This document shows positions 32,341-54,349 of a DNA stretch of 64,000 nucleotides, in pieces (the first letter of the stretch is position 1; every line of letters begins with the position of its first letter). The position numbers and the translations under genes are program-made. The notes below the pieces were generated by a model. The model did not search any database, was not told where the DNA came from, and worked only from the letters and a program-made list of their open reading frames with translations. This DNA comes from Thalassotalea nanhaiensis (lineage in GTDB: Bacteria > Pseudomonadota > Gammaproteobacteria > Enterobacterales > Alteromonadaceae): the NCBI RefSeq assembly GCF_031583575.1, contig NZ_CP134146.1, forward strand, positions 2,356,001 to 2,420,000, read 5' to 3'.

Positions 32341-32368
32341 AAGACGGCTATAAGCCGTCTTTTTTATT
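32341..32368. terminator. Bidirectional terminator overlapping the AraC stop codon
   Basis: AAGACGGCT-ATA-AGCCGTCTT followed by a T-run ends the TonB receptor 2 transcript. Its loop region overlaps the stop codon of the convergent AraC gene (32348-32350). Confidence 0.88.
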
Positions 32369-33343
32369 GCCTTTAAATTCACGATATGCAATTGGAGTAA
32401 CACCTGTCCACTTTTGAAACGCACGGCTGAAATGGCTATGCACGGTATACCCAAGCGCTTCAGCGATTTGGTGAATTTTTAAATCGCTATGCTCAAGATA
32501 GTGAACGGCTGAATCAAAGCGTACTTGCTGTAGTACTTGTTTATAACTTGAGCCTTCTTTTGCTAAACGGCGTTGAATTTGACGCCTAGATAAGCCAAGT
32601 AAGCTTACCGATTGTTCTAATGAGGGAAACCCTTCTGCATTGAATGACTTTAACGCGTGATATAACTTGTCTCTAAAATGGTCATCAGCTAAAACATGAT
32701 GTTCGAAATTGATCTCTAATTCAGGATTTGCTTCGCCAAGTTGCTCGTTACTTATAAATAAGCCTACTTTGTGCTGATGTTGAGTAATAAGTGCATTAGA
32801 GAAACGTTGATGTACCGCTTTACCTTGATCTTGCCTATGTAATGTTATTGCCTCTGGCGACCATGAATCACCAATATACTTTCGAATGTAACGGACCCAA
32901 AGCGCTAAAGTAAATTGCTCCATTTGAACCAACCCATCAACTTCAATTTCACCATGACCACCAAATAGCCATACACCTTTATTTTGATACGATAGCCATA
33001 GCTTTGCATGAGTTGATATCTCCTTTACTCGTTCGATTAACAAACGCAAGGCATCATGCAGGCTTAACGCGTCAGCTTTTATACTCGAATAAAGCGGCTC
33101 AACAACGCTATCACCTTCTGCTTCGTCGACCAAAAACCCAAGATCAGTTACTTGTAGATAATCGCTCGCCAGATCAAAGAGCTTCCATAATGGGTAGGTA
33201 GCAACATATTCCTGATTATTTTCTAATAATGCTATCGGTAAATTCGCCTGACTTAATAACAACTCTACCGGTGCTTTCTTCATTTGCAAAAAGCGGATCA
33301 GTGGAAATGCATTACTGCGATCGATTAAATGTAAATTTTTCAT
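32348..33343 (-). CDS. AraC-family regulator, partner of M19 protein 1
   Basis: A 331-aa regulator with an Arabinose_bd-type sensor domain (begins MKNLHLIDRSNAFPLIRFLQ) and C-terminal AraC HTHs (LSRRQIQRRLAKEGSSYKQVLQQVR, then IAEALGYTVHSHFSRAFQKWTGVTPIAYR). The ATG at 33343 was chosen because three paralogues in this window start the same way; the frame is open 13 codons further. It is divergent from the M19 gene at 33492 with 148 bases between, so it most likely controls that gene. One of four such pairs. Confidence 0.92.
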   Translation of the reverse strand: MKNLHLIDRSNAFPLIRFLQMKKAPVELLLSQANLPIALLENNQEYVATYPLWKLFDLASDYLQVTDLGFLVDEAEGDSVVEPLYSSIKADALSLHDALRLLIERVKEISTHAKLWLSYQNKGVWLFGGHGEIEVDGLVQMEQFTLALWVRYIRKYIGDSWSPEAITLHRQDQGKAVHQRFSNALITQHQHKVGLFISNEQLGEANPELEINFEHHVLADDHFRDKLYHALKSFNAEGFPSLEQSVSLLGLSRRQIQRRLAKEGSSYKQVLQQVRFDSAVHYLEHSDLKIHQIAEALGYTVHSHFSRAFQKWTGVTPIAYREFKGNKKDGL

Positions 33344-33491
33344 AATGTTAATTGGTTGTAATAAAGTGTGTAAGCATTTCAACCGGTACCAAATGGTTAG
33401 GTGTACATAATTTTAATGTACTAAACTACATCCATCAAATAAATCTTTTACAAAACTTTAACGTTTATCGGTACTCAATTAGGAGAGTTAC

Positions 33492-34748
33492 ATGAAAAAA
33501 TCTTTATTAACTTTAAGCATCGCAACAGCGTTTATTGCCAACATGTCAGTTGCAGCAGAGATTCATCAAGGTTACAGCAAAACCGCTAAACAATACCAAG
33601 TAAACGGAAATGTGGTAAGCAATGTCGATACGTCAGCAAATTTATGGAATCCTCGCGGTAAATCACCAGAGCAACTAGATGCTCGTGCTCAGTTCCTGAC
33701 AGATGCCGCAGATACACGTACTGCTGAGCAGAAAAAGGCCGATGCCGCTTACATGGAAAAATATAAAGGTGCGATAGTAATTAACTCATTAATGCCAACC
33801 TCTGTAGGTGTTATCGGTAACACTGTTGAATCGTTTAATCGAGCCATTGAACGCAACCGCGATGCAGGTGTTACACATTTCTCATCTTCAATTGGTGCGT
33901 TCCATCCAAAAGATGTGATGTTCACTTACATTAATGATTCAGATCCTGTTTTAAAAGACTTACAGGTAACAAAAGCCAAGACCTCACAAGACATCCGTGA
34001 TGCAAAAGCAAAAGGTCAAATGACCATGATGTATAACTCGCAAGGCTTTGACTATAACCTAGATAACCTGGATTACGTAGATGAATTGCATGACAGTGGC
34101 GTGAATATTATGAACTTTGTTTATAATTCAAAAAACCACTTTGCTACCGGCATTGAATACAATGCAGACCCTTTAAACCAGGAAGGATTAACCAAGCTTG
34201 GAGAAGAGTTTATTAAGCTTGCGAACAAGCGAGGCATTATTGTTGATACGTCGCATTCATCAGATGCAACGGCAATTCAAGCAGCAAAAATTTCAACCAA
34301 ACCTATTATGGCATCACACAATAATTCATCAGCAGTTTATCCAATGACTCGTAACATGAGTGATGAAGCTATAAAGGCAGTAGGTTCAACTGGTGGTGTA
34401 GTTTGTACTAATGGTATCGGTGTTTTCCTAAGTAAAGATGGTAATGCTCAGGCAGAAACGATGGCTGCTCATGTTGTTCACACAGCAAGCCTTATTGGTA
34501 AAGAAGGCACCTGTTATGCGTCAGATTATACTCATAACCTGTTTGATGCGATGAAAATTCAAGTACCTATGGTTGACAAGTACCCACCAGAGAAGGGCTT
34601 TGCCTCACCGTCACAAATGGCTGGTATCGAAGATGTTTGGGCAATTGTTTCAGTACTTGAAAACAAATACGATTGGAGCGAACAAGAAATCCGTGGTTTC
34701 TTAGGTGAAAACGTAATGCGCGTTTATAAGGCTAACTGGGATAAGTAA
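33492..34748 (+). CDS. Secreted M19 (renal dipeptidase-like) protein 1, altered metal site
   Basis: A 418-aa exported protein (signal peptide MKKSLLTLSIATAFIANMSVAA) with the membrane-dipeptidase fold. A helical preamble (LWNPRGKSPEQLDARAQFL) precedes the barrel. Kept family residues are His255 (VDTSHSS), His276 (MASHNNS), Asp345 (ASDYTH) and the late FLGENVMRVY. The usual DGHND metal motif reads INSLMP (98-102) and the bridging Glu is Gln184 (NSQG), so a normal di-zinc site cannot form. It may bind one metal or act differently. AGGAG precedes the ATG. A divergent AraC gene lies next to it, and a GYD-domain gene follows. Confidence 0.88.
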   Translation: MKKSLLTLSIATAFIANMSVAAEIHQGYSKTAKQYQVNGNVVSNVDTSANLWNPRGKSPEQLDARAQFLTDAADTRTAEQKKADAAYMEKYKGAIVINSLMPTSVGVIGNTVESFNRAIERNRDAGVTHFSSSIGAFHPKDVMFTYINDSDPVLKDLQVTKAKTSQDIRDAKAKGQMTMMYNSQGFDYNLDNLDYVDELHDSGVNIMNFVYNSKNHFATGIEYNADPLNQEGLTKLGEEFIKLANKRGIIVDTSHSSDATAIQAAKISTKPIMASHNNSSAVYPMTRNMSDEAIKAVGSTGGVVCTNGIGVFLSKDGNAQAETMAAHVVHTASLIGKEGTCYASDYTHNLFDAMKIQVPMVDKYPPEKGFASPSQMAGIEDVWAIVSVLENKYDWSEQEIRGFLGENVMRVYKANWDK

Positions 34749-34775
34749 TCTCCCGTAAGTCTATATAAAGTAAAC

Positions 34776-34799
34776 AAGGCGATGTTTCATCGCCTTTTA
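34776..34799 (+). terminator. Terminator of M19 protein 1 gene
   Basis: AAGGCGATG-TTT-CATCGCCTT followed by TTAT, 27 bases after the stop. Confidence 0.85.
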
Positions 34800-34827
34800 T
34801 TTAGGAAGAAATTCATAGGATTTTATC

Positions 34828-35253
34828 ATGTCTCAATATATTAAATTTTTTCTACTCATCAGCCTTTCATTATTTTCCATTCAAAGCATCGCTTCTGACG
34901 CGGAAACAGAAGAAAAGCCTAACCTTCGAACATTTCTAGTTATAGGTGAGCCAAACGCAAAAGGTTGGGCAAATGCAGTTAATAACCCAAGCGATCGACA
35001 AGCAGTAATGGCCGATGTATTTAAAAACCTGGGCGGTGAATTAATTGGTTATTACTTTGGTTTAGGTAACGGCAAAAATTATGTCATTGTCTCAATGCCC
35101 GATGACGAAGTACTTATTCAGGCGATGTATTTAGTCCGCTTGCCTAATGACTGGTTACACAACTACACCATGATAGAACTAATGGATAGCTCAACCATGG
35201 CTCAAGCATTATCTTTGACGCAACAAATGCGTGCAGCAAATACTGCCCAGTAG
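34828..35253 (+). CDS. Secreted GYD-domain-like protein
   Basis: A 141-aa protein with a signal peptide (FFLLISLSLFSIQSIAS) and a ferredoxin-like GYD-type domain: FLVIGEPNAKGWANAV, then KNLGGELIGYYFGLGNGKNYVIVSMPDDE and a helical tail. GYD proteins are usually cytoplasmic and of unknown function, so secretion is unusual. AGGA precedes the ATG. It follows the M19-1 terminator, so it is probably expressed separately. Similar small alpha/beta-barrel proteins recur in this region. Confidence 0.75.
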   Translation: MSQYIKFFLLISLSLFSIQSIASDAETEEKPNLRTFLVIGEPNAKGWANAVNNPSDRQAVMADVFKNLGGELIGYYFGLGNGKNYVIVSMPDDEVLIQAMYLVRLPNDWLHNYTMIELMDSSTMAQALSLTQQMRAANTAQ

Positions 35254-35273
35254 CAATATTTGCTGCTGGGTTT
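35246..35273 (+). terminator. Hairpin at the end of the GYD gene
   Basis: CCCAGTAGCAA / TTGCTGCTGGG with a TAT loop and a short T-run. It overlaps the last codons and the stop. Confidence 0.55.
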
Positions 35274-35401
35274 ACCATTAGCAAAAAATTTAAACTACCG
35301 TTAGAAATTGACCTGATAAACGCCATTATTGAATAAATCTCACTTCTTTTTAACGGTAAAATAAATTCAAATTTTAATTAAAAAATTAAGGACATGCTTC
35401 T

Positions 35402-36286
35402 ATGTCGATTAAATCAATAGCGATAGTTGGTGGCGGTGAAATGGGCTGTGAAATTGCCATTCAATGCGCCTATTCTGGTTTTGCTGTATTTGTTTACGAT
35501 ATTGCAGAAGATGCACACACCGCAATAAAGCAACGGTTTGAGCGAATGATTTCGGTTAATACCAGTAATGGTACATGGTCAACAAAAGAGGCTGAGCGTA
35601 CGCATGCTAATTTAACCATTACCACTGAGCTTATAGATATTGCGAATGTCGATTTAGTTAATGAGTCGGTATTTGAAAGCTTAAAAGTAAAACATGATAT
35701 ATGGTCAAAGCTCGCAACAGTCTGTAGTGAGCACACTATTTTCACCACAAATTCATCATCTCTTCGCCCATCTGACTTTGCTGACAGCACTGGCAGGCCA
35801 GAGCGTTTTGCAGCCCTGCACTTTCATTTAAAAGCATCACGCATTGTTGATGTTATGAATCATGGCGGTACATCAATAGAAGTTATGGAAACACTGGAAG
35901 AGTTGGTACCAAAACTTGGCTTAATTCCACTTAGAATTGATAAAGAAAATCCAGAATATGTCTTAAACTCTATGGTTATAGGTTTGTATTATTCTGCTGG
36001 AAAATTATTGGTTAATAATATTTCACATGTTGAAGATATTGATCGCTGTTGGATGGACCTAATGAAAACTAAATATGGGCCATGTGGCATGATGGATGCT
36101 GTCGGACTCGATACAGTGACCAAAGTCATGTTAGCAAAAACTGATGATGAAATAGCACAAAAGTTTGCGTTGTATTTAAAAACTAACTACTTGGATAAAG
36201 GTTTGTATGGATTAAAAACAGGAAAAGGGTTTTATACATACCCAACGCCAACTTACAGTCAAACAGGTTTTATCGAGGGCAAATAA
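35402..36286 (+). CDS. 3-hydroxyacyl-CoA dehydrogenase family protein
   Basis: An NAD-dependent short 3HCDH of 294 aa, without an enoyl-CoA hydratase domain. The Rossmann motif is IAIVGGGEMGCEIAIQCAYSGF (residues about 6-27). FTTNSSSLRPSDFA and FAALHFH correspond to the usual NTSSL and GMHF blocks. The C-terminal half has GLYGLKTGKGFYTYP. It oxidises a 3-hydroxyacyl-CoA or a related hydroxy acid (carnitine/L-gulonate types share this length). Its active-site His lies in LHFH. It is monocistronic, between the GYD gene and a convergent GlxA-type regulator. Confidence 0.85.
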   Translation: MSIKSIAIVGGGEMGCEIAIQCAYSGFAVFVYDIAEDAHTAIKQRFERMISVNTSNGTWSTKEAERTHANLTITTELIDIANVDLVNESVFESLKVKHDIWSKLATVCSEHTIFTTNSSSLRPSDFADSTGRPERFAALHFHLKASRIVDVMNHGGTSIEVMETLEELVPKLGLIPLRIDKENPEYVLNSMVIGLYYSAGKLLVNNISHVEDIDRCWMDLMKTKYGPCGMMDAVGLDTVTKVMLAKTDDEIAQKFALYLKTNYLDKGLYGLKTGKGFYTYPTPTYSQTGFIEGK

Positions 36287-36312
36287 GTAAATTTAGCAGG
36301 TTTATTACGCTA

Positions 36313-37308
36313 TTAAGCCTGCTTAAACCGATTACGATACATCACCGGCGTTAACCCTAAACGCTTTTTAAATAATCGTGAAAATGAACTCACATCACTA
36401 TAACCAACTTGCTCAACAATATGGGTTAACGATAACGAACTGCTTTCAAGCAATGTTTTAGCTGACTCTAATCTTACATTCTGTAAGTACTCTAATGGCG
36501 CGCTGTCTAATTCAGCTTTAAATCGCCTTATCAAGGTTCTATGACTCACTCCATATTTACTCGCTAATTGGTGTAAGTCGATATTTTGTTGAAAATTAGT
36601 TTGCAATTCATATAGCACTTTACTCACTAATTCATCTTTTACTTCCGGGATAGCAAATAAGGTTTGATAAGGCTCTTGTGAGGCTTGACCAACATCAACC
36701 AGCATCATTTTGGCGCACAAATTAGCAATTTTAGGATCTGAATATTGTTCAATAAACTTAATCGCCAAATTAAAATAAGACGATAATGCTCCGGCACAAA
36801 TTATCCGTTCATCATAGGTAATCATGTCTTTTATATTCAGTTTAACTAATGGAAATCTGTGCTTAAAATCTTTCTCTAGCCACCATGTAGTCGTTGCTGT
36901 TTTCCTGTTGAGTAAACCAGTTTCTGCCAATAACAACGTGCCAGTGCAATTAGCAGCAAGAGTAACCCCATCATGGTATTGGCTCGCTATCCACTGACAA
37001 ACAAATTGTTGTTTATCTAGCCAGTCAAAAAACACTTTGCCTTTAGTGTAATATCCTGAATAGAAACACGCAGGAACATAAAGAATGTCTATTGCAGGCG
37101 CATCATATAACGTGTGATCTGCTTGAATGTTTAAACCGGAATGAGTTGCAACAGGTTTGGAACTCTCAGATAACGTAAGCCATGAAATTTTACTTGTTCC
37201 GGGAGCCACCTTGTCAATAATGGCATTAGCAATTTGAAAAGAGTCAATCAAGCCGGTGAAACTAGACGCGTAGCAACCGTCATAGAGTAATATTCCTACA
37301 GTACACAT
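36313..37308 (-). CDS. GlxA-family transcriptional regulator (DJ-1/PfpI domain plus AraC HTH)
   Basis: A 331-aa regulator with an N-terminal DJ-1/PfpI-like domain (MCTVGILLYDGCYASSFTGL; nucleophile-elbow-like AANCTGTLLLAE at about residue 120) and a C-terminal AraC DNA-binding domain (LASKYGVSHRTLIRRFKAEL, IVEQVGYSDVSSFSRLFKKRLGLTPVMYR). The same architecture as GlxA/FtrA-type activators. It lies 77 bases downstream of an oxidoreductase gene on the same strand and is a candidate regulator of it. Confidence 0.92.
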   Translation of the reverse strand: MCTVGILLYDGCYASSFTGLIDSFQIANAIIDKVAPGTSKISWLTLSESSKPVATHSGLNIQADHTLYDAPAIDILYVPACFYSGYYTKGKVFFDWLDKQQFVCQWIASQYHDGVTLAANCTGTLLLAETGLLNRKTATTTWWLEKDFKHRFPLVKLNIKDMITYDERIICAGALSSYFNLAIKFIEQYSDPKIANLCAKMMLVDVGQASQEPYQTLFAIPEVKDELVSKVLYELQTNFQQNIDLHQLASKYGVSHRTLIRRFKAELDSAPLEYLQNVRLESAKTLLESSSLSLTHIVEQVGYSDVSSFSRLFKKRLGLTPVMYRNRFKQA

Positions 37309-37385
37309 AATGTAAATTTCAACCTAAACACTGCCATAATTAACAAGTATAGTGTTATATGGCAGTGACTGTTATAGATAGTTGA

Positions 37386-38291: not shown

Positions 38292-38394
38292 TTAGTATTT
38301 CTCTCTTTACGTAATTGTATTGAGCATACACTTAGCTAAGTAAAGTCGAATATAGTCAATTTCGACTATTTTAATGCCACATTCGTCATTAGAT

Positions 38395-39114: not shown

Positions 39115-39325
39115 ACAGACCTCAATTATTATTGTTCACTAATTTTAACCTAAGTTTGATGATTAACACCCTGCCAGATTTTAAACAATATGACAAAATT
39201 ATGGCACTTAAGCACCAAACATATATTATAGGTTTGTTATCATATGTAATATATTAGCAGTTATCTGTCACCAACTGTCGAATAAAATTAATAATAAAGA
39301 CGGTTTTTACACGAGAGTTAAATTT

Positions 39326-43564: not shown

Positions 43565-44554
43565 CTATTTTTTATTTAACTTTCTATACTTTTTCGGTGT
43601 TAATCCTGTCCATATCTTAAATGCTCGAGCAAAATTGCTCGGGTTTTTATAGCCAAGTAATGTAGCAATATCAATAATAGAATCATTAGAATTCAATAAT
43701 AAATCTTTAGCAATATCAAAACGCATTTGCTGGATAACCTCTTTAAAACTGGTGCCCTCTTTGGCTAAGCTTCGTTGAATTTTACGAAGTGATAAACCTA
43801 CCCTTTCTGGTACATCTTTTAACTGTGGCAACTTCTCTTTTCCATAAGGTTTCAATGCCTGACAAAGGGTTAACTTAAACGTGGGAGGAATAATACTTTG
43901 TTGACTATTTTCTTCGATAAAGTGTTTAACCCTTTCGCTTAACTCACCTAATTTTTCTTTAGTAATAAAAAAACCGAGCGCTTTATTTTTATCGGCAATA
44001 GCAGCGTTGGGAAAATACTTATTAAACACTTTCTTTTTATCATCATGTTGTATGCTTATTAACGTCGGTTGCCATGCTTTCCCTAAAAACAACTGCACAA
44101 ACTTCAGCATATCGGCAAATACCGTTTGTTGCATTGGTACTAGTCCAACATTTAAATAATCTTTGGTATACGCTAAGAACCAACTTCCTTTTTGTTGGTG
44201 AGATAATTTGAAAACGCCATGTGAAGACATGCTATCTAAATAATGTATCAACAGACAAATACCATCATGCGGATTATTGGCAATAGGCAGTATATCCTCG
44301 ATAAAATTTTTCAGACTTGATAAACCCTTTAGATCAGAGATATGAAAACCCAACGCTTCATCTTCGCTGTAATCATAAGCAAGCTGCATCAATTTCCACC
44401 ATGGATAGGTGGCTATAACCCTATGCTTTCCTTCGAGCATTTCTACCGGAAGCCCTGCTTGGTGTAATAAGTCATACACAGGCGCATTAATACTTTGTAA
44501 GTATCTAACAATAGGCATTGCCACTTGCGTATCAACTAAATGAATATATTTCAT
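43565..44554 (-). CDS. AraC-family regulator, partner of M19 protein 2
   Basis: A 329-aa paralogue of the other Arabinose_bd-AraC regulators here. It begins MKYIHLVDTQVAMPIVRYLQ and ends with HTH motifs LSLRKIQRRLAKEGTSFKEVIQQMR and IATLLGYKNPSNFARAFKIWTGLTPKKYR. The open frame continues 23 codons upstream with Tyr/Phe-rich sequence unlike the paralogues, so the ATG at 44554 is taken as the start. It is divergent from the M19 gene at 44736 (181 bases between). Confidence 0.92.
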   Translation of the reverse strand: MKYIHLVDTQVAMPIVRYLQSINAPVYDLLHQAGLPVEMLEGKHRVIATYPWWKLMQLAYDYSEDEALGFHISDLKGLSSLKNFIEDILPIANNPHDGICLLIHYLDSMSSHGVFKLSHQQKGSWFLAYTKDYLNVGLVPMQQTVFADMLKFVQLFLGKAWQPTLISIQHDDKKKVFNKYFPNAAIADKNKALGFFITKEKLGELSERVKHFIEENSQQSIIPPTFKLTLCQALKPYGKEKLPQLKDVPERVGLSLRKIQRSLAKEGTSFKEVIQQMRFDIAKDLLLNSNDSIIDIATLLGYKNPSNFARAFKIWTGLTPKKYRKLNKK

Positions 44555-44735
44555 AATAAAATCAAAAAAGTAACTTATGTCGTCTACAATGTAAAAAAAA
44601 GTGTAATAACTTTTATTTGGCATCTAATGATGCTTTTTAAGCATAAATTAATTCTAGAATGGCTTCATTGAAATCGCTAGCAACAATATTTAATTTTTAC
44701 ACATTTAATATGTGCACAATCAAAAAGGTATTTTT

Positions 44736-45983
44736 ATGAAACTTAAAGCAATCGTACTGGCAACATCTGCTATTTTATCTGGTGCTGTTATGGCCCATGA
44801 TATCGGTCACGAACATGAGCACGTTAAAAATGGTTGGAACGCCGAAGCTGGTTTTGTCTCTGATGTTGATGTAGAAGCGAAGCTTTGGAGCCCTCGCGGT
44901 AAATCTCAAGCCGAAATCGATGAGCGTGCAGCGTATGTTGAAAAGTTTTTCGATGCAAGTCGCACTGAAGCTGAGCGAGCTGAAGATAAAGCCATCAAAG
45001 CCCGTTTTAAAGATGCTATCGTAATTAACTCACTAATGCCTTCAGGTATTGGCATTCAAGGCATCAAAGAAGATAAATTTGAAGAAGCGGTAAATAAAAA
45101 CCGTGATAATCAAATTTCATTGATCTCAACATCAGTATGGGCCTTTGAAGGGGTTAACGATGTTTCTTTTCAAGATACCCTTACCCGTACTGATGCGGCA
45201 ATAAAAGCGCTTGATATAGTAAAAGTTGATAATACTGAAGATATTCGCCAGGCGAAAGCCGATGGTAAAATGGCAATTATGTATAACTCTCAAGGCGCTG
45301 ACTTTGTTATTGAAGATTTAGACAAAGTAAAATGGGCTAAAGATAGTGGCATCCGAGTAATGAACTTTACTTATAATAATGACAACGCACTAGCTGGTGG
45401 TGGTCAAAACACGGCTGATAATGGTGTTACCGAACTTGGTATCGAATTTATAAAACGGATGAATAAAGAAGGCGTGATTCTCGATTGTTCGCATTCATCT
45501 TCACAAACCTGTATTGATATGGCCAAACATTCATCTAAACCGGTTTTAGCAACACACTCTAATGCAAAAGCGCTATATGATACCGGCCGAAATATTACCG
45601 ATGAGGCAATGAAAGCTATTGCCGCAACCGATGGCGCGGTATGTACTGTAGGGGTAGGGTTATTCCTCAACCCTGAAGGGACTGCCGAAGTTGAAGCTAT
45701 TGCTGAGCATGTACAATATACAGCAGAGTTAATTGGTCGTGATCGTACTTGTTATGCATCTGATTACTCACATATGTATGCAGATTTCTTAAAAGCCTTT
45801 ATCGGTGTTGTTGACAAGTACCCACCAGAGAAAGGTTTTGGCGCACCAATTCAAAATGCATCTGGTGGTGATATCTGGGGTGTAGCTCGAGTTCTAGAAG
45901 ACAAATACAACTGGAAAGAAGACGATATTCGTGGATTCTTAGGTGAAAATCTAATGCGTGTATACAAAGCTAACTGGAAATAA
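44736..45983 (+). CDS. Secreted M19 (renal dipeptidase-like) protein 2, His-rich N-terminus
   Basis: A 415-aa paralogue of M19-1. The signal peptide (MKLKAIVLATSAILSGAVMA) is followed directly by a histidine-rich segment HDIGHEHEHVKNGW, a possible metal-loading arm absent from the other three. The preamble LWSPRGKSQAEIDERAAYV matches M19-1. Kept: LDCSHSS, LATHSN (a TH in place of SH) and ASDYSH. Lost: DGHND reads INSLMP, and the bridging Glu is Gln (NSQG). The C-terminus FLGENLMRVYKANWK is conserved. The frame runs 8 codons upstream; AAGGT favours the ATG at 44736. Confidence 0.88.
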   Translation: MKLKAIVLATSAILSGAVMAHDIGHEHEHVKNGWNAEAGFVSDVDVEAKLWSPRGKSQAEIDERAAYVEKFFDASRTEAERAEDKAIKARFKDAIVINSLMPSGIGIQGIKEDKFEEAVNKNRDNQISLISTSVWAFEGVNDVSFQDTLTRTDAAIKALDIVKVDNTEDIRQAKADGKMAIMYNSQGADFVIEDLDKVKWAKDSGIRVMNFTYNNDNALAGGGQNTADNGVTELGIEFIKRMNKEGVILDCSHSSSQTCIDMAKHSSKPVLATHSNAKALYDTGRNITDEAMKAIAATDGAVCTVGVGLFLNPEGTAEVEAIAEHVQYTAELIGRDRTCYASDYSHMYADFLKAFIGVVDKYPPEKGFGAPIQNASGGDIWGVARVLEDKYNWKEDDIRGFLGENLMRVYKANWK

Positions 45984-46032: not shown

Positions 46033-47016
46033 TTAATGAATCTCTCTATATTGCTTAGGTGACATGTTTGCCATTTTTTTGAACGCTCTGGAAAAATGCG
46101 AAGCATCTGTATAATCTAGTTGTTGTGATATATCGATGATCTTTGTATTAGATTGAGACAACTGTTTACGAGCAATATCAAATTTAACCTGATTTAAAAT
46201 TTCTCGATAACTTACCTCTTCTTTTACTAAGCGACGCTGAATTTGTCGAAGCGATAAGCCAATTAACTCTGACAGTTTATTAATCGTTGGAAAGCCTAAA
46301 CCAGCATATTGTGACAATACCTGATAAAGTTTTTTACTAAAGTTCACATTCAAATCACTATCTGCGAGCATGCTCGCTAAATTAAATCGTGCGTTGATAC
46401 TACCTACGTGTGCTGTATTAATGAATATCCCTGTTTTGGCCTGTAATTCTGTCACCAAGGCTTGTGGAAAATACTTTCTAGTTTCACCACTGCTGTCTTG
46501 GTGTTGGATGGTTATTGCTTCAGGTTGCCAAGTATCACCCAAATAATAACGTACAAACCCGATCATATTCGCTAAAGACATTTGCTCTAAAGGTTTTAGT
46601 GCATCACTTTCTATCTCTACCCCTGTGCCATAAAACCATACGCCAGATTTTTGATAGGCCAAGTCATAAGTGGCATGAGTAGATAGGTGAGACATGAAAC
46701 GTATTAACATGATCAAACCATCGTGCAAGGTCAAGCTTTTATCGCACACTGTTTTAAAAATAGGTTTCATTGATGCTAGTTTTATATCTTTAGCCATTCG
46801 ATAGCCAAAATCGGGCCAATTTAACTGCTTTTGGCACAAATGAATAAACTGCCAATATTGATAATTGGCCACAGCTTTTATCGAACAGTCGGCATCAGCC
46901 AAATCAAATGGCAACCCAGACTCTCTCAACAATGCTGTTACATCTAGCTTTTGTAGCTTTACGTAACTAATTATTGGCAGTAGTGACTCAGCATTAATTA
47001 AATGTAACGTCTTCAT
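46033..47016 (-). CDS. AraC-family regulator, partner of M19 protein 3
   Basis: A 327-aa regulator with the same plan as its neighbours: N-terminus MKTLHLINAESLLPIISYVK, Arabinose_bd-like sensor domain, and C-terminal HTHs (LSLRQIQRRLVKEEVSYREILNQVK, then ISQQLDYTDASHFSRAFKKMANMSPKQYREIH). It is divergent from the M19 gene at 47167, with 150 bases between. The intergenic gap contains a perfect TACTCA-A-TGAGTA palindrome that may be its operator. Confidence 0.93.
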   Translation of the reverse strand: MKTLHLINAESLLPIISYVKLQKLDVTALLRESGLPFDLADADCSIKAVANYQYWQFIHLCQKQLNWPDFGYRMAKDIKLASMKPIFKTVCDKSLTLHDGLIMLIRFMSHLSTHATYDLAYQKSGVWFYGTGVEIESDALKPLEQMSLANMIGFVRYYLGDTWQPEAITIQHQDSSGETRKYFPQALVTELQAKTGIFINTAHVGSINARFNLASMLADSDLNVNFSKKLYQVLSQYAGLGFPTINKLSELIGLSLRQIQRRLVKEEVSYREILNQVKFDIARKQLSQSNTKIIDISQQLDYTDASHFSRAFKKMANMSPKQYREIH

Positions 47017-47104
47017 TAAGTTGTAATTTCCATTAACAGTTTTTCAACAAAGCGGAATAAAATGGCCAGAAATAGAGATTTCATTACCCTAGACTAGTCG
47101 CAAA

Positions 47105-47117: not shown

Positions 47118-47166
47118 AATATTTATCAGGCAATCAAACTGCCCAATGAACTTATAGGATGTATCC

Positions 47167-48402
47167 ATGAAACTTAAATCTATTGCACTAGCAACTCTTA
47201 TCGCAACAACAGCCTCTGTATCAGCGGTTGAAATCTCAGACGACATCACTGCCCGTTACTGGAATGTTGAAGGTAAAACTAAAGCACAAATCAACGAGCG
47301 CGTTGCTTTTTTAATGAAAGCCGCTTTCCCACGTACTTCTCAAGAAAGAATGAGTGATTTAGCAGTACGTGCTAAATATAAAGACGCAATCGTTATGGAT
47401 ACCCTGACAACAGGTGCCGTTAACTTCCCTACCGGTTTAACAGCACCTCGTTATAATGAAATGATGAACTTCTCGTATGATTACGGTTACACCTATTTAT
47501 CAACAACCCTTTCAAACGGCACCGATAAAGACTTCAATCAAACCATCGAACGTTTAAAAGAAACAGATGCAGCAAACCAGGCTGAGCGTCGTATTTTAGT
47601 TAAATCAGTAGATGACATTTACCAAGCAAAAGTTGAAGGCCGTGGCGCATATGATTATCACTTACAGGGCGCTGCACAGGTTGAAACAATGGAACAACTT
47701 GAGCAATTAAATGAACTTGGTTTAAACCGAGTAAACTTTGCTTACAACACTCGTAACCAGTACGCTGACGGCATTTCAACGAACATGACTGATGACGATC
47801 AAGGATTGTCAGATAAAGGTATTGCACTCGTTAAAAAAATGAATGAACTAGGTATTATCGTTGATTGTTCTCACTCTTCAGATCAAACATGTATTGATGC
47901 AGCGAAGGTATCAACTAAACCAGTAATTTTGTCACACACAAACCCTCGCGCATTAATGAATATCAGACGTAATGCCTCTGATGAAGCCATTGAAGCAGTT
48001 GCCGCATCTGGTGGCTTAGCCTGTAACAATATGGTTGGTGGTTTCTTAAATGATGATTTTGACGCATCACCTAAACGTGTAGCTGAATCAGTGCAATATG
48101 TGGCTGAATTGGTTGGTAAAGAACACACTTGTATGGGCGTAGATTACGTGCATAACATGGAAGATGCCTTGCATTGGATTGTACGTACACCTGAGAAATT
48201 CCCAGTAGAAGAAGGTTATGGCTCTATCTCGAGTGTTGGTGTACCTGCGGACATCTGGGCTGTTGTAGCAATTCTAGAAGAAAGATACGACTGGACTGAA
48301 ACTGAAATCCGCGGATTTTTAGGCCTTAACTACATTCGTGTAATGAGTGAAGTAATGAATGAAAAAGGTGAAGTGTTCGTTAAAGCAAATCACAATCACT
48401 AA
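47167..48402 (+). CDS. Secreted M19 (renal dipeptidase-like) protein 3
   Basis: A 411-aa exported paralogue (signal peptide MKLKSIALATLIATTASVSA). The preamble YWNVEGKTKAQINERVAFL resembles the others. The zinc motif position reads MDTLTT and the bridging Glu is Gln (HLQGAAQ). VDCSHSS, LSHTNP and GVDYVHN retain the late ligands and Asp. It differs from M19-1/2 in the substrate-facing loops (ALMNIRRNASDEA, NNMVGGFL) and has an extra His-containing C-terminus (KANHNH). AGGATG precedes the ATG; a terminator follows the gene. Confidence 0.87.
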   Translation: MKLKSIALATLIATTASVSAVEISDDITARYWNVEGKTKAQINERVAFLMKAAFPRTSQERMSDLAVRAKYKDAIVMDTLTTGAVNFPTGLTAPRYNEMMNFSYDYGYTYLSTTLSNGTDKDFNQTIERLKETDAANQAERRILVKSVDDIYQAKVEGRGAYDYHLQGAAQVETMEQLEQLNELGLNRVNFAYNTRNQYADGISTNMTDDDQGLSDKGIALVKKMNELGIIVDCSHSSDQTCIDAAKVSTKPVILSHTNPRALMNIRRNASDEAIEAVAASGGLACNNMVGGFLNDDFDASPKRVAESVQYVAELVGKEHTCMGVDYVHNMEDALHWIVRTPEKFPVEEGYGSISSVGVPADIWAVVAILEERYDWTETEIRGFLGLNYIRVMSEVMNEKGEVFVKANHNH

Positions 48403-48429
48403 TCTACCACAGTAAATTAAACTAAAACG

Positions 48430-48453
48430 GGAGCCTCAGGGCTCCTTTTTTTT
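48430..48453 (+). terminator. Terminator of M19 protein 3 gene
   Basis: GGAGCC-TCAG-GGCTCC followed by eight T. Confidence 0.9.
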
Positions 48454-48579
48454 ATCTCAACATGGCTTCAATTAGAAAAATAAAATTTCGAGACTAAATG
48501 TCTAGTTTATTTACCACACTAGGCTACCTTTAACTTATAAGAAAATTTCTATTGTTCAATAACTTACAAGGTTGAGAAA

Positions 48580-50205
48580 ATGACTATAGCCCCTAAATTT
48601 CAATTAACTTCTTTTGTTAAAGTATCTGTACTTGCCCTGCTTTCACTTGCTATTGCGGCTTGTAGCTCTACTGATGGAGGTAATGCTCCTGAAAGTTATG
48701 ACATTGTCATTAATAATGGCCGGGTCATAGACCCTGAAACCAAATTTGACGGTATTCGTAATGTTGGAGTGAAGGATGGCCGTATAGTAACCATCACAGA
48801 AGATGCGATTACAGGCAATGATACAATAGATGCTACTGGCTTTGTCGTATCCCCAGGTTTTATCGATACTCATACCCACTCAAGTGTTAAATATAATATT
48901 AAAATGGCGATGATGGATGGCGTAACAACTGCTATGGATTATGAACTTGGTGGTATGAATATTGGCGCTTGGTATGATCAGGAAATGGGTCAATGGCCAA
49001 TTAATTACGGTACTTGTGTATCACATGAACAAGCACGAATGATGGTTTTAGATAAACTGAATTTAACTGAACCAATCGATGCCAAAGATGCATTTACTTT
49101 ACGCGCTAAATCTAAAGAAGACGGTATGGAATCATGGTCTGTTCAGGTCAGTACTAAAGCCGAGTTAGAAAACATCACTAAAATTTTGGATGAAAACCTA
49201 CGCCAAGGCGCGCTATGTATAGGAACAACCGTAGGATACGCGGCAGTAGGAATTAGTAGTTATGAACTATTCGAAGTACAAAGAACTGCTGCTCGTTATG
49301 GTCGCCCTATCGGCTCTCATACTCGCTATCATGGCACAAACAAACCACCGCAAGAAGCAACTCTGGGTGCCGACGAGGTCATTTTAAATGCCATGATCCT
49401 TGATGCCCCTTTAGTGTATTCGCACAATAATGATTGGGGTTGGTGGGAAATAGAAGAAAAACTATCAATCGCTCGGGAGAAAGGCTACAACATGTGGGCG
49501 GAATATTACCCTTATGAAGCTGTATCGACAGCCATTGGCGCAGCACCTTTAGCACCAGAGATATTCATTAATGTATTGGGTTATAGCTACGAAGATGCGA
49601 TGTATGATCCAACCCAAAGTAAGTTTTTATCGCAAGCTGAGTACGAGGACGTTTTGGCAAAAGACCCTGGCCGAACTGTTATCGTTTATAACCGTATGCG
49701 GACAGAATGGATGCCTGATTGGTTAACATTAGAGAACGTAACAATAGGCTCAGATGCAATGTGGTCAAATAATCCAGAAGATAATTGGGATACCGACCCA
49801 GCTAAATATGCTGGCCACCCAAGAACTTCAGGCTCACATACTACGATATTGCGCTTAGGCCGAGAACATAAGGTGTCATTAACGCAATCTATTTCACAAC
49901 TGAGCTACTGGCCAGCTAAATTTCTTGGTAAAACAGGTCTGACATTTTTTGATGAACGTGGGCGCATACAAGAAGGCATGGTCGCTGATATCGTAATATT
50001 CGACCCTAAGACTGTTAAAGAAGGCTCAAGTTATGATGTAGGCCAAAATGGTTTACCGCCAATTGGTCTGCCGCACGTAATTGTAAATGGTAAGTTTGTA
50101 AAACGTGACAACCAGGCAATAAAAGAGATGGCCGGTTTACCGGTGCGCTACCCTGTAGAGGAAACAGGTCGATGGCAGCCAGTAAAAGCAAAACAAATTA
50201 AGTAA
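48580..50205 (+). CDS. Lipoprotein N-acyl-D-amino-acid deacylase (D-aminoacylase-like amidohydrolase)
   Basis: An amidohydrolase-superfamily enzyme of 541 aa, probably attached to a membrane: the signal peptide ends in the lipobox IAAC with Cys28. Then comes the metal motif GFIDTHTHS (His98, His100), IGSHTRYHG, YSHNNDWGWW and IGSDAMWSN with the family's late Asp. The C-terminus has HVIVNGKFVKRD, usual for these amidohydrolases. D-aminoacylases release D-amino acids from N-acyl forms; lipidation is unusual, since family members are often soluble. It is monocistronic between M19-3 and sthA. The substrate remains an inference. Confidence 0.87.
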   Translation: MTIAPKFQLTSFVKVSVLALLSLAIAACSSTDGGNAPESYDIVINNGRVIDPETKFDGIRNVGVKDGRIVTITEDAITGNDTIDATGFVVSPGFIDTHTHSSVKYNIKMAMMDGVTTAMDYELGGMNIGAWYDQEMGQWPINYGTCVSHEQARMMVLDKLNLTEPIDAKDAFTLRAKSKEDGMESWSVQVSTKAELENITKILDENLRQGALCIGTTVGYAAVGISSYELFEVQRTAARYGRPIGSHTRYHGTNKPPQEATLGADEVILNAMILDAPLVYSHNNDWGWWEIEEKLSIAREKGYNMWAEYYPYEAVSTAIGAAPLAPEIFINVLGYSYEDAMYDPTQSKFLSQAEYEDVLAKDPGRTVIVYNRMRTEWMPDWLTLENVTIGSDAMWSNNPEDNWDTDPAKYAGHPRTSGSHTTILRLGREHKVSLTQSISQLSYWPAKFLGKTGLTFFDERGRIQEGMVADIVIFDPKTVKEGSSYDVGQNGLPPIGLPHVIVNGKFVKRDNQAIKEMAGLPVRYPVEETGRWQPVKAKQIK

Positions 50206-50223
50206 TATTAAAACCTACATTAC

Positions 50224-50249
50224 AAGGTCTGCATATGTAGGCCTTTTTG
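50224..50249 (+). terminator. Terminator of the D-aminoacylase-like gene
   Basis: AAGGTCTGCA / TGTAGGCCTT with a two-base apex and TTT following, 19 bases after the stop. Confidence 0.8.
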
Positions 50250-50516
50250 TTGATTTACTAAAAGGTAATTTACCCATGAACACTTATATTGATCTTACTC
50301 AACAACTGTTTAACCGTTAATTGTCATCATATATTTATTGTTATAAAAATGTGACATAAATCGTTAATTAACTCATATACATCAACTTATGACCTATTTA
50401 CTGGGCTAAGTTTAATAAAAAAGACCATTTTTTTTATATTAATTTTTTTAATTTGCGTTAGTTATTATATAATCCCGTTAATTATTCTCCAGCCCTAAGG
50501 GTTAAAGGCATTTACA
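50250..50516 (+). promoter_or_regulatory. sthA upstream region with TATAAT box
   Basis: A very AT-rich stretch. A perfect TATAAT lies at 50468-50473, 44 bases before the start codon, with a poor -35. A 14-codon frame at 50276-50320 (MNTYIDLTQQ...) has no support as a gene. Nothing else is recognised. Confidence 0.4.
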
Positions 50517-51944
50517 TTGGCTAAACAACAGAGTTCAAATAAAAATAAAACGTCCTACGATTTTGATGCAATCATCATAGGTACCGGCCCTGGTGGTGAA
50601 GGCGCAGCAATGAAGCTCGCAAAACGAGATCAAACTGTTGCCGTTATTGAGCGTTATAAAAAAGTTGGTGGAGGCTGTACGCATTGGGGAACTATTCCTT
50701 CAAAAGCGCTACGTCAATCGGTTAGTCAACTGATCCAATTTAACTCAAACCCTTTATTTGCCAATAACGAAAAACCAAAGCATTTAACTTTTCCTGATAT
50801 TTTAGGGCATGCTTCGTCGGTAATTGATAAGCAGGTTAATTTACGCTCTGGTTTTTATAACCGTAATCGAGTAACTAATTTTCACGGCCAAGCCGAATTT
50901 GTTGATGCAAACCATGTAAAGGTTACGTTAGAAGATGGCTCAACGGAAACCATCAGTGCTAGCAACATAATTATTGCTACAGGATCTCGTCCGTACCACC
51001 CTGACAACGTTGATTTTAGTCACCCAAGGGTATATGACTCTGACAGTATCCTTTCACTAAAGCATGATCCAAGACAGATCATTATCTATGGTGCAGGTGT
51101 CATTGGCAGCGAGTATGCCTCTATCTTTAGAGGGCTTGATGTTAAGGTCGATTTAATAAACACCCGCGATCGTTTATTGTCATTCCTTGATGATGAAATG
51201 TCAGATTCATTAAGTTATCACCTTTGGAATAATGGTGTAGTTATTCGTCATGGTGAACAAATTGAAAAAGTAGAAACAACCGATCATGCTGTAATTGTGC
51301 ATTTAGAATCGGGTAAAAAAGTTAAAGCTGATTGTTTACTGTTTGCTAATGGTCGTACCGGTAATACTGCAGAACTAAATTTAGCCGCAGCAGGACTAAC
51401 GGCAGATGGCCGTGGTCAAATTAAAGTCAATGGTGCGTATCAAACGGAAGTAGATAACGTTTACGCTGTAGGTGATGTTATTGGCTATCCTAGTTTAGCG
51501 AGTGCCGCCTACGATCAAGGCAGAATTGCTGCCAGTGCAATTATTCATAACGGCACTGCAAATAAATTAATTGCTGATATACCAACTGGAATTTATACCA
51601 TCCCTGAGATCAGCTCTGTTGGTAAAACAGAATTAGAACTTACTGAAGCAAAAGTCCCTTATGAAGTAGGACGTGCGCAGTTTAAACACTTAGCTAGAGC
51701 ACAAATTTCGAATAGTTTAGTTGGCTCTTTAAAAATATTGTTTCATCGTGAAACCAAAGAAATTCTGGGCATCCATTGTTTTGGTGAAAATGCCGCTGAA
51801 ATCATTCACATTGGCCAAGCGATCATGCAGCAAAAAAATGGTGGCAATACCATTGATTACTTCATTGAAACAACATTCAACTACCCTACTATGGCTGAAG
51901 CATTCCGTGTTGCCGCGTTAAATGGCTTGAATCGCTTGTTTTAA
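50517..51944 (+). CDS. sthA: Soluble pyridine nucleotide transhydrogenase
   Basis: A FAD-dependent cytoplasmic enzyme that exchanges reducing equivalents between NADPH and NAD+. The FAD-binding GTGPGGEG is at residues 22-29 and the NAD(P) motif [16 protein letters not shown] lies near 195. [15 protein letters not shown] shows Cys54 but lacks the second redox Cys of lipoamide dehydrogenases, exactly as in SthA. At 475 aa it has the usual length. Translation starts at TTG with AAGG upstream. It is a housekeeping gene inside the accessory region. A very strong terminator follows. Confidence 0.96.
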
Positions 51945-51963
51945 AGCTTTCAAATAAACAGCA

Positions 51964-52000
51964 AAAAGCCCGAATATCGTTACGATATTCGGGCTTTTTT
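51964..52000. terminator. Strong bidirectional terminator between sthA and M19 protein 4
   Basis: A 16-bp perfect stem AAAAGCCCGAATATCG / CGATATTCGGGCTTTT closes on TTA and has A/T runs on both sides. Confidence 0.95.
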
Positions 52001-52022
52001 TAATGGTGCAACTGACTTTAAA

Positions 52023-53210
52023 TTAACGCCAATTTGCTTTGTAAACTCTCATTAAGTTTTCGCCTAAGAACCCTATTATTTCCTGCTCAGTCCAACCGTA
52101 TTTATCTTCTAATACAGGAACTACGCCCCAAACATCAGCAGGTTCAGCAATTTCTGTAGGGCTTCCGTAACCTAGCTCTGGTGGGAATGACTCGGGGTTA
52201 CGTAAAACAAAGTCTAGCGCATTAACATAAACAATCGGGTCAACATAATCTGAGCCCCAACACGTATGCTTTGCTCCTACTAATTCTTTAACATAATTGA
52301 TAGTTTTTGCTAAATCTTCAGGGCCAGCAAAACCTTGTTTGTTGTGGAAACCACCTAAGCCATTAGCACAAATTGCCCCACCTGTTTTTGCAACCGCTTT
52401 AATCACATCATCAGGTGAGTTTCGTGGTAAAGCATATGTACCATAAGCATTTGAGTGTGACAAAATAATAGGTTTTGTTGATGCAGCTGCTGCATCTAAA
52501 CAGGTGCGGTTACTCGAATGAGTACAATCAACAATCATACCTACTCGGTTCATTTCAGCAACAAGGCGAATACCCGCTTTTGATAAACCGCCGTCTCTAT
52601 CTGATGCAACACCACCACCATCTGACATATGATTACGCACGTTATAAGCAAAGTTCATCGAGCGCACCCCAAGTTTATAATAGGTTTCAACCATATTTAG
52701 GTTACCACCTAACGCGTTAGAGCCTTGAAAGTTAATATTAACCATAAACTTGCCACTTTTATGCGCTGCACGAATATCATCAACGGTTTCAACCACTTGA
52801 TATTTATCAGAATTTTTATCCCAAAAGATACGGGCTTGCGCTATCCAGTCCATAATAATTAGTGGATCAAAGGTGTCATCAATCGCTGCGGTGTAAGAGA
52901 CAAAATCAATGTTATTATCGCGAGATTTTCCAGCCATTGCCTCCCAATCTGCTGTTGATTGACCAACATAACCACCAGGAGTACCAGGAACTAGCTGATC
53001 AATTACGATTGCATCTTTATAACGCTCATGCACCGCTTTATCGGCAGCACGTTCGTCTCCAGGTCTCGCTTCAGTCATTTTCTGTAAATAAGCCTTTTTC
53101 TCTGCAACTTCAGCATCAGTAATAGCAATAGCACTTGTCGGGGCAAACGCTATAGTTGCTATAGCAGTTGATAGCGCAATTGCAATTATGTTTTTCTGCA
53201 AGTTCTTCAT
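52023..53210 (-). CDS. Secreted M19 (renal dipeptidase-like) protein 4
   Basis: A 395-aa exported paralogue: signal peptide MKNLQKNIIAIALSTAIATIAFAPTSAIA, then a shorter preamble (EVAEKKAYLQKM). The metal-motif position reads VIDQLVPG and the bridging Glu is Gln (NFQGSNA). Kept: VDCTHSS (one TH), LSHSNA, GSDYVD and FLGENLMRVYKANWR. The loop YALPRNSPDDVIKAVAKTGG is closest to the classical family. The open frame extends 23 codons upstream; AAGGTG favours the ATG at 53210. It is divergent from the AraC gene at 53345. Confidence 0.88.
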   Translation of the reverse strand: MKNLQKNIIAIALSTAIATIAFAPTSAIAITDAEVAEKKAYLQKMTEARPGDERAADKAVHERYKDAIVIDQLVPGTPGGYVGQSTADWEAMAGKSRDNNIDFVSYTAAIDDTFDPLIIMDWIAQARIFWDKNSDKYQVVETVDDIRAAHKSGKFMVNINFQGSNALGGNLNMVETYYKLGVRSMNFAYNVRNHMSDGGGVASDRDGGLSKAGIRLVAEMNRVGMIVDCTHSSNRTCLDAAAASTKPIILSHSNAYGTYALPRNSPDDVIKAVAKTGGAICANGLGGFHNKQGFAGPEDLAKTINYVKELVGAKHTCWGSDYVDPIVYVNALDFVLRNPESFPPELGYGSPTEIAEPADVWGVVPVLEDKYGWTEQEIIGFLGENLMRVYKANWR

Positions 53211-53344
53211 ATAAACACCTTTGGAAATTAAAAATTCGTTAGTTAGTTGATGAGGTAAATTATATGAGAAGAAGCACACAATTTAATTGCCATATTACGC
53301 CAAGCTACTAAACTGAATGTATTATCAAAAACAAAGCCACGCAG

Positions 53345-54349
53345 ATGAAGATAATACCTCTCATTCCTACCCACTTTTATTTGCCTTATTTTTTAGCCTT
53401 AAAAGACTTTGATATTAAGCACTTACATTTTCAAGACTATATAGACATGGTGATGGATAATGATCCTGAACTAGTCGATTTTAAAATATCCGCGGTGGTA
53501 TTTAGGCACCTTTTCGAAATCATTGAGCGTAACCGTATTAAAGATTTTGGCATATATTCTGCGCAGAAGTATTCATTAAAGGCTTTTTCAAGTCAGCTCA
53601 AAGAACTTGAACAAAATAATAATGTTCTATTATCCAATTTATTTAAGTTCTGCTGTGAGTTTAATAAACAGGGTTACTTACCATCAGCATCATTAGAAAA
53701 AGCAAATAGTGGCGACATTTACTTTTGTCATAAACGGATGACTAAGTTTTCCATTGGCGAAAATATTGTTCAACAGCACAGCATCATATCTTTTATTTCT
53801 GTGATCCAATTTTTAATCGGCGATGAACAATGGCAACCAAAGGAGGTTCACTTACAAGGGCTGCAAGATGATGATGAGTTACAACATGCTCTACCGAATA
53901 CTCAAATATATCGAGGCCGAGAGTGCAATCGAGTCGTAATAGAACGCAGCATGTTAGCAGAGTCACTCTCTGATAAATACTTTATAAAAAGGCGCCAATA
54001 TAGTTACTCTCCCCCTGAAAATTTCTGTGACCAATTGATACAGCTACTGACGCCTTTTATTGGCCAAAAAATACCGAAAATTAACTATATAGCTAAAATA
54101 TCGGGAATTTCAGCAAGAACGATCCAACGTATATTGCTTTTGGAAGGTAAAAGCTATCGGAAATTATTAACGTTGATGATGATGGATAAAGCTAAGGTAG
54201 AGCTTTGTAATTCTGATAAGAAAATACAGGAAATTAGTGCCCTGCTTGGTTATACCGATAAAGCCCATTTTACACGCGCTTTTAAAACTTCTTTTGGTAT
54301 TACACCTAAAAGTTACCGACAACTAAATACTAAAAAAGCCTCAAAATAA
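53345..54349 (+). CDS. AraC-family regulator, partner of M19 protein 4
   Basis: A 334-aa regulator, the most divergent of the four in its sensor half (MKIIPLIPTHFYLPYFLALKDF at the start). The DNA-binding end is clear: ISGISARTIQRILLLEGKSYRKLLTLMM and ISALLGYTDKAHFTRAFKTSFGITPKSYRQ. It is divergent from the M19-4 gene, 134 bases apart, so it is likely to regulate it. The stop codon lies inside a terminator hairpin shared with the SDR gene. Confidence 0.92.
   Translation: MKIIPLIPTHFYLPYFLALKDFDIKHLHFQDYIDMVMDNDPELVDFKISAVVFRHLFEIIERNRIKDFGIYSAQKYSLKAFSSQLKELEQNNNVLLSNLFKFCCEFNKQGYLPSASLEKANSGDIYFCHKRMTKFSIGENIVQQHSIISFISVIQFLIGDEQWQPKEVHLQGLQDDDELQHALPNTQIYRGRECNRVVIERSMLAESLSDKYFIKRRQYSYSPPENFCDQLIQLLTPFIGQKIPKINYIAKISGISARTIQRILLLEGKSYRKLLTLMMMDKAKVELCNSDKKIQEISALLGYTDKAHFTRAFKTSFGITPKSYRQLNTKKASK

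Follow-up and report, generated by a model that had tools for sequence, protein, structure and literature searches.

The window analysed here is a stretch of 64,000 nucleotides from Thalassotalea nanhaiensis (contig NZ_CP134146.1; C1:2356001-2420000 of the genome referred to below as G000), and the system in question is an array of divergent gene pairs, each made of an AraC-type regulator and an apparently exported protein with the fold of the M19 membrane dipeptidases (PF01244). Four such pairs lie in the window, where a sequence-only reading had already placed them: the open reading frames (ORFs) are there, the M19 members are recognised by PF01244 and the regulators by the HTH_18 DNA-binding domain. 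The 134-181 bases given by that reading between start codons also held, the gaps between ATG starts being 148 bp (33343/33492), 181 bp (44554/44736), 150 bp (47016/47167) and 134 bp (53210/53345). Export of the array proteins was judged by eye from signal-peptide-like N-termini. The pairs, with their operator-like sites and two neighbouring genes, are the following (window positions).

32348..33343, minus strand: AraC-type regulator of pair 1 (HTH_18 70.8 bits, PF12625 25.1 bits with a cut-off of 27.6; annotated ORF to 33382, ATG at 33343)
33380..33403, plus strand: operator-like 24-bp site of pair 1 (score 20.8, training site)
33492..34748, plus strand: HxD-less M19-fold protein of pair 1 (PF01244 186.2 bits; export by eye)
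34828..35253, plus strand: small GYD-domain protein, 3' of pair 1 (PF08734 35.1 bits, cut-off 31.4; export by eye)
43565..44554, minus strand: AraC-type regulator of pair 2 (HTH_18 above cut-off, PF12625 just below; annotated ORF to 44623)
44614..44637, plus strand: operator-like site of pair 2 (score 20.6, training site)
44736..45983, plus strand: HxD-less M19-fold protein of pair 2 (PF01244 194.6 bits; export by eye; annotated ORF from 44712)
46033..47016, minus strand: AraC-type regulator of pair 3 (PF12625 43.3 bits, HTH_18 63.5 bits)
47049..47072, plus strand: operator-like site of pair 3 (score 18.2, training site)
47167..48402, plus strand: HxD-less M19-fold protein of pair 3 (export by eye)
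48580..50205, plus strand: D-aminoacylase-like amidohydrolase beside pair 3 (PF07969 53.9 bits, PRK09061 337.6 bits; lipoprotein-type signal by eye)
52023..53210, minus strand: HxD-less M19-fold protein of pair 4 (PF01244 218.4 bits; export by eye; annotated ORF to 53279)
53283..53306, minus strand: operator-like site of pair 4 (score 18.3, training site)
53345..54349, plus strand: AraC-type regulator of pair 4 (HTH_18 63.1 bits; no PF12625 match at E 0.001)

A search of the whole 4.31-Mb genome found eight M19 genes and one fragment below the cut-off. Six of the eight lie at genome positions 2389492-2450515, each divergent to an AraC gene, so that the array comprises six pairs in 62 kb; pairs 5 and 6 (2437876-2440340 and 2448097-2450515) are beyond the window. 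In what follows G882 is the sister genome, other G-numbers are further genomes of the genus and L-numbers are extracted loci. A C-terminal M19 fragment adjoins pair 6 on the plus strand (genome 2447770-2448030; L002 7770-8030); it shares 92% identity with residues 343-429 of a complete copy in G882 (2061644) and so looks like a deletion remnant.

M19-fold proteins with an altered active site

The M19 proteins of the window score 186-218 bits with PF01244 (cut-off 26), all six array genes are above the cut-off, and the predicted fold is clearly an M19 barrel. The six paralogues are 35-50% identical to each other (40% on average). In all 26 members of their clade, the six array enzymes included, the HxD metal motif is absent, the bridging Glu is replaced by Gln and the catalytic His (which we take to be H152 in human numbering) by Tyr; H198, H219, R230 and D288 are retained in the same 26. 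The binuclear zinc site of the M19 membrane dipeptidase is therefore incomplete in every member, with HxD and the Glu missing and two His and the Asp kept. Dipeptidase chemistry finds no footing in this site: since HxD, bridging Glu and catalytic His are lost in 26 of 26, the label 'L,D-dipeptidase' is unsupported, and we have rejected the canonical M19 dipeptidase reading because the metal ligands and catalytic His are replaced in the array enzymes. By these residues, they are probably not the dipeptidases of their family name.

Compared with known proteins, the array lacks the HxD, bridging Glu and catalytic His of the membrane (renal) dipeptidases of MEROPS M19/PF01244 (DPEP1, 1itq and 9h0b; Sco3058, 3id7; GliJ, 5lwz). 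It shares with the Pseudomonas aeruginosa 'amidohydrolase' 2i5g, whose gene we take to be PA5396, the loss of HxD, the changes of Glu to Gln and His to Tyr, and the conserved His/His/Arg/Asp. The chain of 2i5g matches the profile from residue 5 and so has no exported-type extension, whereas the array proteins are of the exported type (by eye). The M19 fold and the AraC family are already known, and an HxD-less M19 form already exists in 2i5g. PA5396 was not met in the literature searched, a small part of the matching papers, and no function was found there for 2i5g. An excerpt of PMC12093977 places a predicted dipeptidase gene, 'pepD', before dgcAB in V. natriegens and P. aeruginosa; this pepD may be the 2i5g gene.

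In the M19 tree the array clade groups with L016-L018 (support 87), and L023, a 2i5g-type relative, forms a long branch elsewhere. Like the AraC tree used below, it is a quick search with SH-aLRT support only and some long branches; L010 (same genome as G885), L013 (M19 split over two frames) and the partial L019 and L020 were dropped, and the second M19 of L011 was added from its ORFs. The alphaproteobacterial M19s of L016-L018 have an intermediate site, in which the His of HxD and the Glu are kept and the catalytic His is replaced by Tyr.

A regulator clade that adjoins amidohydrolases

All six array regulators have HTH_18 above the cut-off, and the PF12625 sensor is above it in three (among them both regulators beyond the window), just below in two and without a match at E 0.001 in one. 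The Arabinose_bd-type sensor that the sequence-only reading had assigned to all four window regulators was thus recovered for 46033, narrowly missed at 32348 and 43565, and found no match at 53345. The best NCBIfam models for these four are QhpR, GliR and CypR, yet the scores of 46-109 bits against cut-offs of 250-570 (the highest 108.6 against 250, QhpR) show that they are not members. Among the six, identity averages 0.26 in the sensor domain and 0.45 in the DNA-binding domain, the latter being higher in 15 of 15 comparisons.

We have used a profile of the six array regulators (A2) to collect relatives from 15 genomes of the genus (31 at E<=1e-35, the six seeds included; orthologues across genomes are non-independent) and have read the neighbourhoods of all 31. 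An amidohydrolase-superfamily gene adjoins 29 of the 31, divergently in 25; with the seeds removed the counts are 23 of 25 and 19 of 25. The divergent partner is an HxD-less M19 in 16 cases, an Amidohydro_1 protein in eight (Pfam identified four, and each of the others is 42-44% identical to one of those by BLAST) and a D-aminoacylase-like protein in one, and four relatives follow an HxD-bearing M19 in the same orientation. Two, both in G052, have no amidohydrolase neighbour (3724710, and 2980116, which faces a PF00144 protein). As a small control, none of three sister-clade AraC genes of the same region (28688, 72278, 119809) adjoins an amidohydrolase-superfamily gene. The exported Amidohydro_1 proteins (presumably cog1228-like) and the D-aminoacylase-type amidohydrolases are similar to the array M19s in adjoining the same AraC clade, some with similar, weaker sites, and differ from them in that four copies read by eye (48580; 2075971, 2100018, 2111980) keep HxH, whereas the array M19s lack HxD.

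Other arrangements were also seen. At L004 (8809-13162), L069, L070 and L071 an HxD-bearing M19 is followed by an AraC of the array clade and outer-membrane-like genes; in Shimia (L013 5848-7100) an M19 split over two reading frames faces an AraC, followed by a D-aminoacylase-like gene; and DUF3299 proteins (PF11736; L081 3534-4259, L068 8752-9441) accompany amidohydrolase or M19 genes.

An operator-like motif shared by the promoters

Ungapped 9-mer enumeration did not clearly set the promoters (9 of 10) apart from five shuffles (7-8 of 10). A gapped pattern on the M19 strand, GG-N5-(A/T)ATG-(G/A), occurs in 9 of 10 non-redundant promoters, and 2000 mononucleotide shuffles averaged 0.45 of 10 with a maximum of three. 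A 24-column matrix was built from nine sites (consensus.aa.tGGCacctAATGGTaattt.) and scanned over the clusters; the census covered ORFs of at least 100 aa with upstreams not cut at region ends. Among 111 genes of G000, the top seven upstream scores belong to the six M19 genes (18.2-30.0, training) and to the GYD gene that follows pair 6 (18.3, not used in training); the eighth is 11.7. The six sites start at -112, -122, -118, -96, -109 and -127 relative to the M19 ATGs. The scan of 103 G882 genes likewise gave held-out sites before the D-aminoacylase-like orthologue of 48580 (21.5, against 5.9 for the window copy) and before the GYD orthologue (20.0). In G882_p4 the annotated start runs into the regulator; this pair fell below the census threshold, although its site scores 18.5 in the locus scan. 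Altogether 14 of 212 full-length upstreams reach a score of 14: seven are training sites, four are M19 orthologues of these and three lie before held-out genes. For 200 column-permuted matrices the mean is 0.28 and the maximum three.

Weaker intergenic matches precede Amidohydro_1 genes (L080 15.0, L081 14.6, L078 12.3) and outer-membrane-like genes (L069 16.5; L004 14.2 and 13.1; L071 13.9; L075 13.2, an AraC locus with no adjoining M19). As background, 8 of 221,724 positions reach 12.5, two of them training sites, and many matches of 11-19 in the scanned loci fall inside genes. The exact pattern has 13 matches genome-wide, four in the cluster and nine elsewhere (eight inside mechanically called ORFs, one just 5' of a transporter-like ORF); with nine of 13 outside the cluster and seven matches for the reversed-pattern control, it is weak by itself. 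The G882_p7 regulator (2116001) and its tree sister 2113481 have a changed helix (aligned by eye), and the promoters that they face tentatively share a low-scoring variant site, TGTCY..AA.TGGT. In Vibrio comitans (L011 2738-2792, 8967-10308) operator-like sites of 12.6-15.7 lie beside AraC genes, one set 5' of an SDH_alpha gene preceding two M19 genes.

The recurrence of one motif at the six M19 promoters and before GYD and D-aminoacylase-like genes suggests many sensors acting on one regulon and not insulated pairs. It goes against the separate modules, each with its own compound, of the sequence-only reading.

Co-evolution and exchange of partners

If whole units had been duplicated repeatedly, as was also proposed, the distances of regulators and enzymes should agree. 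Among the six G000 paralogues they correlate with r 0.73, a value reached in 9 of 720 permutations; the agreement is moderate in nine groups (r 0.54; 615 of 50,000) and weak in the seven G882 pairs (r 0.38; 528 of 5040). With the 15 pairs taken together r is 0.85 (0 of 20,000), but orthologues inflate this figure. Pair 2 and the G052 pair look jointly inherited (72% and 67%), and partners have been exchanged in at least three of the 15 compared pairs. The AraC of G882_p5 is orthologous to that of pair 5 (73%), whereas its M19 partner falls among copies from Vibrio, Shimia and Halieaceae (support 99); G882_p7 combines a pair-2-like M19 (60%) with an AraC at most 31% identical to any row of the tree; the G880 AraC is the sister of the pair 6 regulator (98), whereas its M19 partner clusters with G885_a (99) within a group of six (100). 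The expected co-branching is hence found for pair 2/G052 and fails for G882_p5, G882_p7 and G880, and strict co-duplication of the whole unit was rejected on account of this partner exchange and the weak G882 correlation.

Distribution

Using a profile of the six array enzymes (A3) we found matches at E<=1e-60 in five of the 15 genus genomes (G000 six, G882 nine, G885 two, G052 one, G880 one). Divergent AraC-M19 pairs occur in four of them (G000, G882, G052, G880), with seven of the nine clade M19 genes of G882 divergent to an AraC, and the same-family pairs in three genomes besides G000 bear out the idea that an AraC gene with an exported enzyme recurs beyond chance. In a sample of 147 genomes of the family, 19 match at 1e-30, the strong matches being confined to G000 and G052 (1.1e-46 for the best of the others); wider samples, of 369 genomes from the class and 398 from the phylum, gave no 1e-80 match beyond the window's own genome among the best 4-5 candidates scored per genome. 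Vibrio comitans, Shimia and Thalassotalea litorea are among the 13 relatives obtained in a scan of GTDB contigs with two short peptide patterns, and of eight plasmid records one, from Photobacterium, covers 80% or more of the query at 38% identity. The HxD-less branch is rare and patchy; relatives may be missed in the class, phylum and GTDB searches because of the few candidates scored and the two short patterns.

G882 holds the same cluster inverted, with insertions and losses and many genes more than 90% identical. The pair of G052 adjoins the orthologue of window gene 22871, which sits at the array edge in G000 and is found in 14 of the 15 genus genomes. We do not claim a horizontal island, the GC content of 10-kb blocks being 0.374-0.411 with no step at the cluster. 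Integrase-like and phage-like genes (by eye) adjoin the cluster in G882 (2155621-2174950; L063-L064). A second locus (L005 8695-17943) contains an HxD-less M19 (IDFYAS), a D-aminoacylase-like gene with an apparently altered HxH (by eye), a DadA-like oxidase, two TonB receptors and an AraC. In G885 (L067 10988-17500) two tandem HxD-less M19 genes lie with a GYD-like gene and two more amidohydrolase-like genes, and no AraC.

Neighbouring genes and a possible pathway

Three more genes of the window belong to the surroundings of the array.

26101..28524, plus strand: TonB-dependent receptor (Pfam)
28688..29725, plus strand: AraC-type regulator of a different clade, between the two TonB receptors (PF12625 71.9 bits; outgroup in the AraC tree)
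29990..32314, plus strand: TonB-dependent receptor (Pfam)

Pfam thus confirmed the two TonB receptors of the sequence-only reading; its D-aminoacylase homologue (48580) comes close, with the 337.6 bits of PRK09061 just under the 340-bit cut-off. The extended cluster contains TonB receptors, acyl-CoA ligases, thiolase and sarcosine oxidase subunits (Pfam/NCBIfam), and scans of the neighbours with both collections pointed to no specific pathway beyond the last three. Between array pairs (L001 9392-15750; genome 2429392-2435750) lie the sarcosine oxidase gamma, alpha and beta genes and a PurU-like gene (by eye), with an other-clade AraC tail to tail with the sarcosine oxidase genes. Pirin-like and glutathionyl-hydroquinone-reductase-like genes (by eye) are also present. 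The neighbouring genes would fit a breakdown of an amide to an acyl part and an (N-methyl) amino acid.

In Caenibius, TonB receptors and D-aminoacylases are reported to be cholate-inducible (PMC12882949), and Bilophila is reported to cleave taurine-conjugated bile salts with an Amidohydro_3 enzyme (PMC13081902). Bile-salt-type deconjugation was considered by way of the Caenibius case, and nothing at the array singles it out. No dipeptidase was found in the part available of PMC3691474, on sarcosine oxidase in Colwellia. In the literature searched we found no report of the array, of an AraC-amidohydrolase association or of the shared motif, none joining a membrane dipeptidase with AraC and a TonB-dependent receptor or a GYD domain with an amidohydrolase, and none on a Thalassotalea dipeptidase with AraC.

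Interpretation

The explanation that we favour, with somewhat more confidence than doubt, is that the array is an inducible battery of exported, retooled amidohydrolase-superfamily enzymes that process amide-linked nutrients under one operator code. An AraC clade of the genus would control exported enzymes of this superfamily and would have been amplified together with the retooled M19 branch, giving six pairs here and seven pairs plus two more M19 genes in the sister species. Each regulator would probably bind a different but related small cytoplasmic ligand, as the divergent sensor domains suggest, and all would bind nearly the same 24-bp operator some 96-127 bp 5' of the M19 ATGs, a position on the coding strand from which they would probably activate the M19 genes together with GYD-domain and D-aminoacylase-like genes. 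The nearby TonB receptors would import amide-linked nutrients (N-acyl amino acids or dipeptide-like conjugates). The signal-peptide-exported M19-fold proteins would most likely split these nutrients, or process them in some other way, at a reduced metal site (two His, Asp, Arg and Gln/Tyr) instead of the binuclear one of renal dipeptidase.

A more specific version is plausible but tentative, and we would not rely on it: a lineage-specific system of many sensors and one operator, in which six AraC paralogues (nine in the sister cluster) with differing ligand domains would act largely through a single operator and jointly turn on an exported M19-fold battery with a new metal-poor site (His, His, Asp, Arg, Gln, Tyr), non-dipeptidase chemistry and exchangeable partners. 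A common operator code would explain why regulators and the M19, Amidohydro_1 and D-aminoacylase-like families could be exchanged.

Several observations weigh against the inducible battery. G885 carries two clade M19s with no AraC beside either, and the pairing expected in other genomes, found in four of the 15 genus genomes, fades outside them: three of seven clade-M19 loci (L008, L009, L011-L015) contain an AraC relative, and only L013 is directly divergent, the other six not. AraC proteins usually keep the DNA-binding domain better than the sensor, so the contrast between the two domains is by itself weak support. The gapped motif was first spotted by eye in promoters later used for training, leave-one-out ranks extend from first to 69th out of roughly 280,000 positions, and four of the 200 column-permuted matrices also gave a best score of at least 18. 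Some expected targets have no good site: the D-aminoacylase-like 48580 (5.9), GYD 34828 (2.8), the TonB receptors (0.8, 5.1) and the G882_p7 M19 (5.2). Finally, loss of the metal ligands could also mean that catalysis was lost.

This last point leads to a rival that we consider unlikely, although it deserves attention, namely that the array M19 proteins are non-catalytic periplasmic pseudoenzymes that bind or scavenge ligands and hand them to the uptake route or to a D-aminoacylase-like enzyme. The missing HxD, Glu and catalytic His, the amplification and divergence of the six and the HxH-bearing (by eye) D-aminoacylase-like gene beside pair 3 would all suit it. The preservation of H198, H219, R230 and D288 in every clade member, despite the 40% average identity of the six, would not, and plain decay would hardly produce the constant replacements by Gln and Tyr. 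We regard as quite improbable that the pairs are insulated modules in which each enzyme is a conventional exported M19 L,D-dipeptidase with a peptide-like substrate of its own as inducer. The high Pfam scores, the one AraC per M19, the divergent sensor domains and the correlated distances in G000 speak for such modules, and the residues missing in all six, the one motif at six promoters and the partner exchange in the trees speak against them. Still less credible is a shared motif that is a mere leftover of a duplicated intergenic region and not a working operator. It was found in the same sequences as tested, and several of the promoters belong to mutual paralogues or orthologues; however, the promoters are otherwise dissimilar (by eye), strand and distance are kept across paralogues whose AraC proteins are 22-49% identical, the motif recurs 5' of the unrelated GYD and D-aminoacylase-like genes and, tentatively, the changed-helix regulators 2116001 and 2113481 face variant sites. 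Detoxification in place of nutrition, such as hydrolysis of beta-lactam-like compounds or peptide antibiotics, is very improbable: renal dipeptidase hydrolyses carbapenems, one AraC relative faces a PF00144 serine-hydrolase gene (L076) and the pirin-like and glutathionyl-hydroquinone-reductase-like genes are nearby (by eye), but the metal ligands needed for such chemistry are absent, PF00144 includes many enzymes unrelated to resistance, and the TonB receptors, acyl-CoA ligases, thiolase and sarcosine oxidase look catabolic.

The inducible battery has consequences for how such genes are read. 'Membrane dipeptidase' is commonly annotated from the fold alone, and here a coherent branch and a solved structure, 2i5g, lack the defining ligands; as the branch has nevertheless been amplified and is apparently regulated, its role is very likely a different one. 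Together, the AraC clade and the motif predict co-induced exported amidohydrolases, and the inducers of the regulators could reveal the substrate class of the branch. If true, the array would be a compact case of duplicated regulators that diverge in their input and keep one output site.

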